NCBI RefSeq assembly: GCF_002736145.1
Contig: NZ_CP024160.1
Coordinates: 1,302,001 to 1,366,000 of the forward strand
Direction of reading: 5' to 3'
DNA length: 64,000 nucleotides
From: Collinsella aerofaciens
GTDB lineage: Bacteria > Actinomycetota > Coriobacteriia > Coriobacteriales > Coriobacteriaceae
Shown: positions 16,216 to 59,123 of the stretch, in pieces
Layout of the letters: each line of letters opens with the position of its first letter
Numbering within the stretch: position 1 is the first letter of the stretch
Notes under the pieces: generated by a model
Told to the model about the DNA's origin: nothing
The model's database searches: none
The model's input: only the letters and a program-made list of their open reading frames with translations
Program-made: the position numbers and the translations under genes

Positions 16216-17997
16216 ATGCTGCTTACGCAAACGACAACGCCCGAGGACGTCAAGGCTCTCGACCGCGCCGAGCTTCCGCTGCTCTGCGGCGAGATCCGCC
16301 AGGCAATCCTCGAAAGCTCCGCCGCCGTCGGCGGGCACGTTGCCCCCAACCTGGGCGTCGTTGAGCTTACGGTTGCGCTTCATCGCGTGTTTAACTCCCC
16401 CATCGACAAGATTGTCTTTGACGTTTCGCACCAGACCTACGCCCACAAGGCTCTGACTGGGCGCGCGTACACTTATATCGATCCGGAGCGTTATGGTGAG
16501 GCTTCTGGCTTTGCCAATCCCGACGAGTCCGAGCACGACCTGTTTGCCATGGGCCATACCTCCACGTCGGTGAGCCTGGGCTGCGGCCTGGCGCACGCTC
16601 GTGACCTGGCGGGCGATACGTACAACGTCATCACCATCATTGGCGACGGCTCGCTTTCGGGCGGCTTGGCGTTTGAGGGCTTCAACAATGCCGTCGAACT
16701 CGACAGCAACCTGATCATCATCGTCAACGATAACGACCAGTCCATTGCCGAGAACCATGGCGGCCTGTATCGCAATCTAGCCGAGCTACGCGCCAGCAAC
16801 GGCACCTGTGAGCGCAACGTTTTCCGCGCGATGGGGCTCGACTACCGCTATCTGGACGCCGGCAACGATGTGTTGGCCCTCGTCGACGCGCTGCAGGAGC
16901 TGCGCGATATCGATCATCCCATCGTGCTGCACGTCTCCACCGCAAAGGGCAAGGGCTTTGAGCCAGCCCAGAGCGACCCCGAGCGCTGGCATCATGTGGG
17001 TCCGTTTGACATGGCGACTGGGCGCAAGCTCTGCCCGGGCCATCCGAGCGAGCCTGCGCCGCGCACCTATGCCGACATTACGGGCGAGGCGCTCAGCGCC
17101 GCCATCGAGCGCGATCCACAGGTCGTGGGCATCACGGCCGCAACGCCCTATATCATGGGCTTTACACCCGAGCTTCGCGCTGCCGCCGGCAAACAGTTCG
17201 TCGACGTGGGCATTGCCGAGGAGCACGCCGTGACCTTTGCCACCGCGCTTGCGCGCTCGGGCGCCAAGCCGGTCTTTGGCGTGTACGGCACGTTTTTGCA
17301 GCGCGCCTACGACGAGCTGTGGCACGACCTGTGCCTCAACGACGCCCCGGCGACCATCCTTGTATTTGGCGCGTCGATCTTTGGCACCACGTCCGAGACG
17401 CATCTTTCGTTCTTTGATATTTCCATGCTGGGCGGTCTTCCCAACATGCGCTATTTGGCGCCTTCCTGTATGGAGGAATACCTGTCCATGCTGAGCTGGT
17501 CGCTCGACCACCGCGAGCATCCCGTGGCGATTCGCGTGCCGGGCATTGGCTTGGTAAGCCGCCCCGATCTGGCACCCGCCGAAGACGCCGACTATGGTGT
17601 CGCACGGTATAACGTGGTACGCCAGGGCCGCGACGTGGCCGTGCTCGCGCTTGGCGATTTCTTTGAGCTGGGTGAGCGCGTGGCAAACCGCTTGGCCGCC
17701 GAGTACGGCATCGAGGCCACGCTCGTCAACCCTCGCTTTGCAACCGAGCTCGACCGCGAGTTCCTCGACAGCCTTGCCGCCGAGCATCGCGTTGTCGTCA
17801 CCCTCGAGGACGGCATCTTGGACGGCGGCTGGGGCGAGCGCGTGGCATGTTATCTGGCATGCACGCCGTTGCGCACGCGCACCTTCGGCATTGCCAAGGG
17901 CTTTCCCGACCGCTATGACCCCAACGAGCTGCTCGCGCAGAACGGCATGACGGTCGAGAACATGGCCGCCGAAGCGGTACGTCTACTGAACGAGTAG
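16216..17997 (+). CDS. dxs: DXS-like thiamine-diphosphate synthase (1-deoxy-D-xylulose-5-phosphate synthase type)
   Basis: 593 residues, somewhat shorter than typical DXS (about 620). N-terminal TPP domain: GGHVAPNLGVVE near residue 38, FDVSHQTYAHK, GDGSLSGGLAFEG with the ND of the TPP motif, then pyrimidine-binding and C-terminal transketolase domains (VGIAEEHAVTFA). Signatures differ from textbook DXS: GHTSTSVSLGC in place of GHSSTSIS, and NDNDQSIAENHGGLYRNL. These match a DXS paralogue group found in anaerobic Firmicutes. DXS joins pyruvate and glyceraldehyde 3-phosphate to start the MEP isoprenoid pathway; whether this copy does so is not certain. Monocistronic, with a strong terminator. 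The ribosome-binding site is weak (GGAG twelve bases before ATG). Confidence 0.85.
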   Translation: MLLTQTTTPEDVKALDRAELPLLCGEIRQAILESSAAVGGHVAPNLGVVELTVALHRVFNSPIDKIVFDVSHQTYAHKALTGRAYTYIDPERYGEASGFANPDESEHDLFAMGHTSTSVSLGCGLAHARDLAGDTYNVITIIGDGSLSGGLAFEGFNNAVELDSNLIIIVNDNDQSIAENHGGLYRNLAELRASNGTCERNVFRAMGLDYRYLDAGNDVLALVDALQELRDIDHPIVLHVSTAKGKGFEPAQSDPERWHHVGPFDMATGRKLCPGHPSEPAPRTYADITGEALSAAIERDPQVVGITAATPYIMGFTPELRAAAGKQFVDVGIAEEHAVTFATALARSGAKPVFGVYGTFLQRAYDELWHDLCLNDAPATILVFGASIFGTTSETHLSFFDISMLGGLPNMRYLAPSCMEEYLSMLSWSLDHREHPVAIRVPGIGLVSRPDLAPAEDADYGVARYNVVRQGRDVAVLALGDFFELGERVANRLAAEYGIEATLVNPRFATELDREFLDSLAAEHRVVVTLEDGILDGGWGERVACYLACTPLRTRTFGIAKGFPDRYDPNELLAQNGMTVENMAAEAVRLLNE

Positions 17998-18040
17998 AAA
18001 AACCTCCGCAAGGGAAGCACCCCTGCGGAGGTTTTTATTT
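17998..18040 (+). terminator. Terminator of the DXS-like gene
   Basis: AAAAACCTCCGCA pairs with TGCGGAGGTTTTT around a 13-base loop, followed by ATTTTT. It starts at the stop codon. Confidence 0.93.
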
Positions 18041-18054
18041 TTCGAGCTCAATTA

Positions 18055-18271
18055 TCTCGATCTGTAACATCTAGGGCCCGAATTCCCGTCTAACTGTTAC
18101 AGATCGAGACAAACGTTCTTAGCTCCCGACGTTTGTCTCAATCTGTAACAGATAGAGACCTTTTGTCCGTCCAGATGTTACAGATTGAGACATTCGAATT
18201 CCCCTGAAGAGAAAATCTCAATCTGTAACAGGTAGAACCCATTTCCTCGTCTACCTGTTACAGATTGAGAC
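18055..18271. repeat. Cluster of three hairpin repeats (TCTCAATCTGTAACA type)
   Basis: Three units, 18055-18110, 18135-18191 and 18216-18271, each have a left arm TCTC(A/G)ATCTGTAACA and a right arm TGTTACAGAT(T/C)GAGA around 25-26 variable bases; unit 3 extends the stem by CAGGTAG/CTACCTG. The 24 bases between units 1 and 2 are AAACGT...ACGTTT, so the right arm of unit 1 can also pair with the left arm of unit 2 (GAGACAAACGT with ACGTTTGTCTC). The cluster fills the gap between the dxs terminator and the 3-prime end of the alcohol dehydrogenase gene. Confidence 0.92.
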
Positions 18272-18311
18272 GAACCGCCAAAGTGCCCCCTTTGTGGTGG
18301 TTTGGAGTCAA

Positions 18312-19514
18312 CTAGCGGTAGCTTTGCTTGAGGATTTCGACGACGTCTGGTTCGGTCAGTGTCACGGGGTCGTGGCTGAACAGGACGCCGTTGGTCGTCA
18401 GAGCGTTATGCGCGATGGCCGGCAGCTCTTCGACCGTAATCCCCCATTCGCTCATGGCGAGGTCTGCCACATGGCAAGCCTCCATCAGGCGCGTAAGCTC
18501 AACCACAAAATCGTGCGGATCATTCGCGGCGGCATTACCCATCAGGCGCGCCATGTCGATATAGCGCTCGGGCGCGGCGCCGTGATCGATCATCCACGTA
18601 TGGTAGGCGCGCGCAATCATGATGAGTCCGGCGCCGTGTGGCAGGTCGTGATGATGCGCGCTCATGCCATGCTCAAGGCCATGCGAGCCCGTGGTGCCCG
18701 AAGCATCCATGGCATAGCCGCCGAGCGTGTTGGCAAACGCAAGGCTCGAGCGCGCCTCCAGGTCATCGCCATCATTGACGCACGTAGGCAGCGCTGCGGC
18801 TGCGCGACGAATGCCCTCGCGGCAAACCATGTCACCCATGGGCGTGTTGGTATTTGAGATGTAGCACTCAACGCAATGGAACAGGGCGTCGAATCCCTGA
18901 TAGGCGGTCAGACGCGCCGGGACGCTCACCATGAGCTCGGGGTCGACGACCGAAAGCACTGGAAACAGGCGCGGATCGCCCAGACGGAGCTTCTCGTCAT
19001 TGTCCTCGCAGGACAGGACACCGCTCGCATCGACCTCGGAGCCGGTACCCGCCGTGGTGGTCACGCACACCAGCGGCAGCGGATCGTTGGGGATAGGCAG
19101 GCCGAGCGCCGTGCCGCCATTCACAAAGTCCCAGATGTCACCGGGGCACTCGTTGCCCTCGGCGTCCGTATGCGGGTTGGCCGCCACCGCGCAAATACCC
19201 TTGCTGCCGTCCATGACCGAACCGCCGCCAAGCGCCAGCACAAAGTCGCAGCCATGGGTGCGCGCCATCCAGCCACCTGCGTTGACGGTCTCGCGCAGCG
19301 GATTGGGCTCAATGCGATCGAACAGCTCGTGCGCCACGCCGGCGCGATCGAGCTCGGCCTCCAAACGTCCCAGATATCCAAAACGCTTGACCGAGTTGCC
19401 GCCGGTGGTAACGATGAGCGCTTTGATGCCAGGCAGCTTCTGCGCGCCCAGCTCGCCCAACTTGCCCGCGCCAAACAGCACCTTGGTCGGTGCGATAAAC
19501 GAATAACCGTTCAT
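18312..19514 (-). CDS. Iron-containing alcohol dehydrogenase (butanol dehydrogenase type)
   Basis: 400 residues, normal for group III alcohol dehydrogenases. NAD(P)-binding GGGSVMDGSKG near residue 96 and TTAGTGSEVD; metal-ligand region GFDALFHCVECY (Asp/His) and the two later His in GLEHGMSAHHHDLPHG. It would reduce aldehydes to alcohols at the end of fermentation or oxidise diols; substrate not determined. AAGGAG precedes the ATG. It is divergent from the amino acid transporter operon and ends next to the hairpin cluster. Confidence 0.9.
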   Translation of the reverse strand: MNGYSFIAPTKVLFGAGKLGELGAQKLPGIKALIVTTGGNSVKRFGYLGRLEAELDRAGVAHELFDRIEPNPLRETVNAGGWMARTHGCDFVLALGGGSVMDGSKGICAVAANPHTDAEGNECPGDIWDFVNGGTALGLPIPNDPLPLVCVTTTAGTGSEVDASGVLSCEDNDEKLRLGDPRLFPVLSVVDPELMVSVPARLTAYQGFDALFHCVECYISNTNTPMGDMVCREGIRRAAAALPTCVNDGDDLEARSSLAFANTLGGYAMDASGTTGSHGLEHGMSAHHHDLPHGAGLIMIARAYHTWMIDHGAAPERYIDMARLMGNAAANDPHDFVVELTRLMEACHVADLAMSEWGITVEELPAIAHNALTTNGVLFSHDPVTLTEPDVVEILKQSYR

Positions 19515-44188: not shown

Positions 44189-44299
44189 TGGGGAAACGGC
44201 AGCTATAGATAGGGCGCCGGGGAGGCCGAGAAATCATCGACGGGGTCAGGCCGACCGCCAAACACAACGCACGCATCTCAATCTGTCAGCCAAATCATT

Positions 44300-58936: not shown

Positions 58937-59123
58937 TCCCGCAACCTTGCCTCTCTTTGGTTTTTGTCAATTAAAATGCCAGAGCCATTCTAGCCCATAC
59001 GCCTGATGGCGAAACGGTTTAGCGGTCAATTAGATCGTCCTATTTGACTCCACGCAAAAGCGGCGGGAAGGTTGTCACAACCCGCTCGCCGCCGAAGCAA
59101 TAGAAATCGATAGACGCCAGGCC

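Follow-up and report, generated by a model that had tools for sequence, protein, structure and literature searches.

Three inverted-repeat units lie in the intergenic DNA between dxs and an iron-containing alcohol dehydrogenase gene of the window (the whole 64,000-nucleotide stretch that was analysed), and they belong to a family of arrays that recurs between genes of this Collinsella aerofaciens chromosome. The arrays can be read as putative ordered half-sites for a sequence-specific, multivalent DNA-binding protein, an interpretation of the letters to which we give about an even chance. Several observations bear on it: i) the layout of the arrays; ii) their recurrence across the genome; iii) their restriction to one clade; iv) the conservation of arm cores and array length; and v) the independent variation of the arms within a unit. 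Words that are equal, conserved and independently varying, and that face each other over a fixed length of variable DNA, point to a protein that would read two half-sites and measure the gap between them. From this we infer binding itself, together with the oligomeric state and biological role of the putative binder that are set out below.

Layout of the arrays and grammar of the half-site

The original prediction had described three consecutive hairpins with a period of about 80 bp, and three such units are indeed present (Table 1), occupying 18055-18270 with a spacing of 81 and then 80 bp. The arms that it had taken as common to the units are related in all three (TCTC(G/A)ATCTGTAACA and its reverse complement) but not identical, since position 5 is G in unit 1 and A in units 2 and 3. 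Neighbouring units can pair alternatively, as had been proposed: the right arm of unit 1 and the left arm of unit 2 are complementary at 93% over 28 nt, and on both strands the minimum-free-energy prediction includes this cross-pairing. Arm-like matches with up to three mismatches number 11 in the window, versus 1.35 +/- 1.26 in shuffles; the phrase at 44278 that had been offered as a hint of a wider family is a lone three-mismatch match (44276-44290), partnerless, at chance level and outside the family. A promoter and terminator scan found nothing inside the array, and no Rfam family reached the gathering score in the window.

Table 1. Coordinates of the array in the window and of its flanking features.
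Feature	Position	Strand	Details
dxs, 1-deoxy-D-xylulose-5-phosphate synthase, left neighbour	16216..17997	+	Pfam PF13292, 6.4e-78
GC-rich hairpin and T run after dxs, terminator-like, outside the array	17998..18036	.	partial consensus-scan match, minus strand
Unit 1	18055..18109	.	arms 18055-18069 (+) and 18095-18109 (-); 25-bp loop 18070-18094, TCTAGGGCCCGAATTCCCGTCTAAC
Outer spacer 1	18110..18135	.	26 bp; CAAACGT...ACGTTTG; orthologues without conserved pairing extension
Unit 2	18136..18190	.	arms 18136-18150 (+) and 18176-18190 (-); loop 18151-18175, GATAGAGACCTTTTGTCCGTCCAGA
Outer spacer 2	18191..18215	.	25 bp
Unit 3	18216..18270	.	arms 18216-18230 (+) and 18256-18270 (-); loop 18231-18255, GGTAGAACCCATTTCCTCGTCTACC
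Second GC-rich hairpin, right of the array, separate	18272..18306	.	resembles the repeat family CCACCACAAAGG...TTTGTGGTGG, by eye
Iron-containing alcohol dehydrogenase, right neighbour	18312..19514	-	Pfam PF00465, 4.3e-41

A wider family does exist, on this chromosome and in other genomes of the genus. On the 2.306-Mb single-contig chromosome the arm, TCTCRATCTGTAACA, has 92 copies at 19 intergenic loci, with one to ten arms per locus. A genome-wide search at up to two mismatches returned 93 matches, versus 0 for a reversed control pattern; the count of 92 leaves out the non-array matches at 59069 and 2261785 and the overlapping one at 1320144 and adds two degenerate arms, and the count of 19 takes together the two parts of a locus that an insertion sequence interrupts. 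Arms switch orientation every 40 bp without exception, a 25-bp inner spacer (inner pitch 40) is shared by 43 of 44 units, the outer spacers are 24-26 bp, and one arm, at 1094248, is solitary. The pattern is the same over 138 loci plus the window, where 419 of 425 inner neighbour pairs stand at 40 bp and the 270 outer pairs at 40 (155), 41 (105), 39 (9) or 38 bp (1), with no same-orientation neighbours within 100 bp; these counts are not independent, since some loci are orthologous or on the same contigs. Moreover, 121 of the 138 loci (L017-L137) came from a pattern search that accepted a locus only if it contained exact 10-bp arm cores and had one or more units with a 24-26 bp spacer; the spacer figure of the own genome is therefore the unbiased one. 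Among 164 arrays away from locus ends, 153 run from + to -, seven from + to + and four from - to -. The commonest sizes are four (58), six (56) and eight (21) arms, and the maximum is 16.

The half-site consensus, drawn from 398 units with a 25-bp loop, runs from an outside block resembling WWTG/WWCA through T-C-T-C/a-R-A-T-C-T-G-T-A-A-C-A to two free bases and W-A-G, with arm positions 6-15 of the fetched loci biased by the fetch pattern, and positions 1-5, loops and flanks unbiased. After W-A-G the loop becomes G/C-rich and then reaches a central T or A tract. This grammar (NNWAG...TTT...CTWNN) is kept while the loop sequence varies: 337 of 355 distinct loops have a clear central majority of T or A, and TCTAG is the commonest 5-mer adjoining the arm within NNWAG. 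A/T falls at 0 and +/-10 in the loop alone, and the outer spacers are A/T at either end and G/C in the middle.

Two other elements were seen in these stretches. One is an insertion sequence of ~1.35 kb, found at L011 (2699-4050, near 1.83 Mb of the own genome) inside the loop of a unit, with a target duplication of 8-9 bp; its reading frame for a Mutator-like transposase seems to be broken. The other is a further hairpin repeat, CCACCACAAAGG-TGCCTGTCCCC-TTTGTGGTGG, that often shares an intergenic stretch with arrays (L001, L009, L010, L012, L013, and the right-hand hairpin of the window), with seven exact cores in 257 kb and none in the sampled stretches of G054 and G048; in the window the exact core has no match. 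In a consensus scan, the hairpin that follows dxs was matched in part only, and on the minus strand.

Conservation, turnover and distribution of the arrays

Sister genomes were checked for absence of the units, and 20 of 22 orthologous loci hold them at the same place, 18 with three units and two (L156, L158) with two. The remaining two loci are a deletion that removed the array and most of the dehydrogenase gene (L159) and a contig end (L160). All 18 three-unit arrays are exactly 216 bp long, with no indel. Their mean pairwise difference is 0.016 in the arm cores, 0.229 at arm positions 4-5, 0.06-0.15 in the outer spacers and 0.04-0.43 in the loops, and dxs differs by 0.190 at 80 four-fold sites and by 0.028 at codon positions 1-2 (17 sequences). 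The arm cores are ~12 times more conserved than the four-fold sites of dxs, and they also change more slowly than its codon positions 1-2; this conservation of arm core and length is selection-like. Gene conversion between repeats could be an alternative cause of the arm uniformity, or one contributor to it, but on its own it would not hold free-running spacers at a constant length.

Loops are replaced while arms stay. Loop 3 exists as two unrelated alleles, unit 3 in other genomes having unchanged arms around an unrelated loop, and loop 1 has a second allele in L155 and L157, with arms and spacers otherwise the same; a formerly longer array that lost a unit between its 80-bp direct repeats would produce such alleles. 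Positions turn over as well, since about half of 25 units in G014 have no close loop match in G000. No recent duplicates were found within G000, where the best loop match is at most 20/25.

Neighbouring genes also change while arrays stay. In a named C. aerofaciens strain the dxs array, unannotated there, adjoins a glutamate ABC transporter gene instead, and the dehydrogenase side of the window is matched in three of the 22 orthologous loci. Between the array and glutamate transporter genes, the dehydrogenase gene (18312-19514) is polymorphic, with only its start left in one genome. For the 132 arrays that are flanked on either side by a called gene and contain none (simple codon-based calls, orthologues included; 37 of 169 arrays had no clean pair), the genes are convergent in 53, divergent in 33 and tandem in 46, and in tandem pairs the array lies closer to the end of the upstream gene. 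The arrays adjoin housekeeping genes that are unrelated to one another: own-genome neighbours encode a GDSL lipase, a DEAD helicase, a copper-type ATPase, EF-Tu, GlmS-like, ClpC-like and GH1 proteins and sugar regulators, with no common theme among the 30 proteins scanned. A preference for part of the chromosome, suggested by the avoidance of 2.05 to 0.36 Mb in G000 (dnaA at 1.75 Mb; by GC skew, origin near 1.75 and terminus near 0.4 Mb), was dropped on finding arrays at 0.21 and 2.35 Mb in G014, a rejection that assumes similar coordinates in the two genomes.

Matches to the window's stretch number 24 to 33 in 22 of 43 genomes of the genus and 0 to 3 in the other 21; being absent from these 21, the arrays are not essential to the genus. 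The exact unit pattern was found in 21 of 296 genomes of the class, all of them Collinsella (one of 125 genera), and a collection of named genomes held at least 80 matching records, all Collinsella among the matches listed. An arm-blind scan for alternating arrays of any other arm gave none in 400 kb from each of two array-free genomes; as a positive control it recovered 13 arrays, 12 in 95 kb and one in the window. A phage collection gave no match, and a plasmid collection gave one, in a 900-kb C. aerofaciens record. A viral contig of 38.9 kb (L137) carries two units at 913-1038, near the beginning of the retrieved sequence; these may belong to the host flank of a provirus. In G013, one of the 21 genomes matching the exact unit pattern but otherwise array-free, a single unit near a contig end (L227, about 1495-1755) is ~96% identical to array-bearing genomes over ~260 bp and adjoins, by eye, a methionine tRNA-like sequence, and may reflect local transfer or an assembly artefact.

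The family thus has a clear grammar, and we found no description of it in the literature searched. The arm letters occur in no paper within that scope, which leaves subscription papers and preprints outside, and searches for Collinsella repeats likewise gave none. A term search of the available text of a recent REP survey (PMC12306157) found neither Collinsella nor Coriobacter, and the available portion of PMC7771070, the sole paper in the literature searched to mention both Collinsella aerofaciens and repetitive extragenic palindromic sequences, does not describe this repeat.

Folding RNA or double-stranded DNA sites

A transcribed RNA element, serving as a terminator, as a 3'-end stabiliser or as a switch between hairpins and cross-paired arms, would account for folds predicted to be strong whichever strand is read (z -13.8 and -12.2) and for the 53 of 132 arrays that lie between convergent genes. 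Arms kept for pairing would show matched changes, and their changes are unmatched, which leaves the folding-RNA reading unsupported. Over 398 units, position 5, which is A or G with nearly equal frequency, agrees between the two arms in 0.525 of cases versus 0.499 +/- 0.026 in shuffles, and position 4 in 0.676 versus 0.680; position 6 (0.940 versus 0.929, z 3.7) is the sole arm position above shuffled. Within the loops, positions 16, 17, 21, 23-25 and 27 are complementary less often than shuffled (z -3.4 to -13.3), a deficit owed in part, at the central positions, to the homopolymer tract.

The 18 dxs-locus orthologues gave the same answer for both folds: 94.4% of cells are paired in the hairpins versus 94.5% in shuffles, and 81.7% versus 81.4% in the cross-paired fold, and the arm pairs 4-52 and 5-51 are each broken in 12 of 18. 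Pairing was also to be extended, according to the original prediction, by AAACGT...ACGTTT between units 1 and 2; the extension is present here, but columns 60-62 pair in only one or two of the 18 orthologues, so that it is largely private to this genome. Extension of pairing into the loops showed a nominal excess (reached in 1 of 500 shuffles for cells paired and 3 of 500 for score) and was rejected as support, because slid controls were as high or higher (0.152 and 0.117 versus 0.089) and its source was the two alleles of loop 3. In addition, the array has no T run, each neighbouring gene has a hairpin of its own, 33 of 132 arrays are divergent, and the window has no Rfam family at the gathering score. 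The switching-RNA idea of the original prediction is therefore not supported, and an RNA element of any of these kinds seems to us quite unlikely.

A proposed binding protein, rival explanations and known repeat systems

A protein that reads double-stranded DNA would take as its half-site the 15-bp arm together with weaker contacts on its outer (WWTG) and inner (NNWAG) sides, and two facing half-sites exactly 25 bp apart, with a central A/T tract, would form one unit. Units at 80/81 bp would present the same surface every 40 bp in alternating orientation, and a dimeric or oligomeric protein may bind unit by unit to build a multivalent complex in intergenic DNA. Its most plausible role would be to organise the chromosome or to insulate neighbouring transcription units, as suggested by the intergenic, gene-independent setting. 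A search for the HU/IHF family (PF00216) found it in 0 of 42 Collinsella genomes (and in 9 of 14 well-known genomes used as a control), a result that also led us to reject HU copy number as a partner of the arrays. The C. aerofaciens group may conceivably have a dedicated chromosome-architecture system, in which a clade-specific protein reads the half-sites at 40-bp pitch and ties ~20 intergenic arrays into a multivalent network or into domain boundaries; we regard this larger proposal as speculative and rather unlikely. Were it true that the arrays organise the chromosome, they would show how bacteria with no detected HU manage. The presence of arrays in about half of the sampled genus genomes provides a natural with/without comparison for finding the protein.

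The arrays may instead be REPIN- or MITE-like selfish repeats, in which a transposase-copied inverted doublet landed between genes and piled up into clusters. The doublets with conserved ends, variable spacer and even-armed clusters fit the REPIN description in the accessible text of PMC3116915, positions turn over between G014 and G000, and Y1 transposase genes occur in 21 of 21 array-bearing versus 15 of 21 array-free genomes. However, the two near-complete genomes compared, G000 and G014, have no Y1 gene closer than 100 kb to any listed unit, and a Y1/RAYT partner was rejected on this lack of proximity and the weakness of the association. Nor do the arms hold an internal hairpin or G000 any recent duplicate, no target duplication or clean empty site was seen (the sole array-less locus is a deletion), the Y1 gene at L209 is flanked by a different repeat, and the arm cores evolve more slowly than dxs codon positions 1-2. 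Taken together, a selfish origin is improbable, if still worth weighing.

Strong sites for gyrase or a general nucleoid protein, as proposed for BIME-2, would match the BIME-like layout, the central A/T tract and the WW blocks ~10 bp to either side, and gyrase favours phased G/C content, its motif having 10.75-bp G/C phasing in the text available from PMC6379681. Such ~10-bp phasing is the mark of a strong gyrase site and was not found in the arrays: A/T phasing at the helical period over the 71-bp unit is not significant (848 of 2000 permutations were as strong), for which reason wrapping is not claimed. Moreover a wrapping enzyme does not need a near-invariant 15-bp word, gyrase is universal whereas the arrays are clade-restricted, and HU/IHF was found in none of the 42 genomes. 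The gyrase role that had been suggested thus finds no specific support, and we consider sites of this general kind quite unlikely; a nucleoid role for the arrays is a possible function. Recombination sites that invert or swap loops as a phase switch are the least probable of these readings, with hardly any claim on belief. They would explain the unrelated loops held between the same arms in unit 3 of the dxs locus and, in two genomes, in unit 1; on the other hand, no loop is inverted in the 18 orthologues, and unit loss between 80-bp direct repeats, as in the two-unit arrays L156 and L158, explains the swaps.

The half-site arrays resemble several known repeat systems in part. Their layout is that of the E. 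coli BIMEs, interspersed mosaics built from REPs, to which the original prediction had pointed for a function: intergenic clusters in which one short word alternates in inverted copies, with two spacer classes and a variable number of units. REPs are palindromes of 20-50 nt that follow a conserved tetranucleotide, mostly GTAG, according to the portion of PMC8266576 available. Unlike these, the arm has no stem beyond 3 bp (its only inner symmetry is TGT-A-ACA) and no fixed GTAG tag, is adjoined by NNWAG and keeps a pitch fixed at 40 bp. A REPIN is a RAYT-linked pair of REPs that folds into a hairpin. As described in the accessible part of PMC3116915, it is an inverted doublet with conserved ends and a less conserved spacer, in even-numbered clusters; the arrays share the inverted doublet, conserved ends, variable spacer and even arm numbers, but their loop is fixed at 25 bp, no RAYT gene is near them in G000 and G014, and the Y1 gene at L209 has its own repeat and not the array arm. 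Variable unit number between genes also recalls the BOX elements. These are intergenic modules of Streptococcus pneumoniae with a variable number of internal units and distinct end modules, whereas the arrays have only like half-sites. With CRISPR the arrays have in common short repeats and variable spacers of fixed length; they differ in that the repeats alternate in orientation and the loops are vertically inherited and bound by the grammar. The Y1 (RAYT-like) transposase gene at L209 (600-1680), with its flanking copies of a repeat like CATTGGGGACAGACTTACATGAGTGCTTTC, is likely a separate REPIN-type system.
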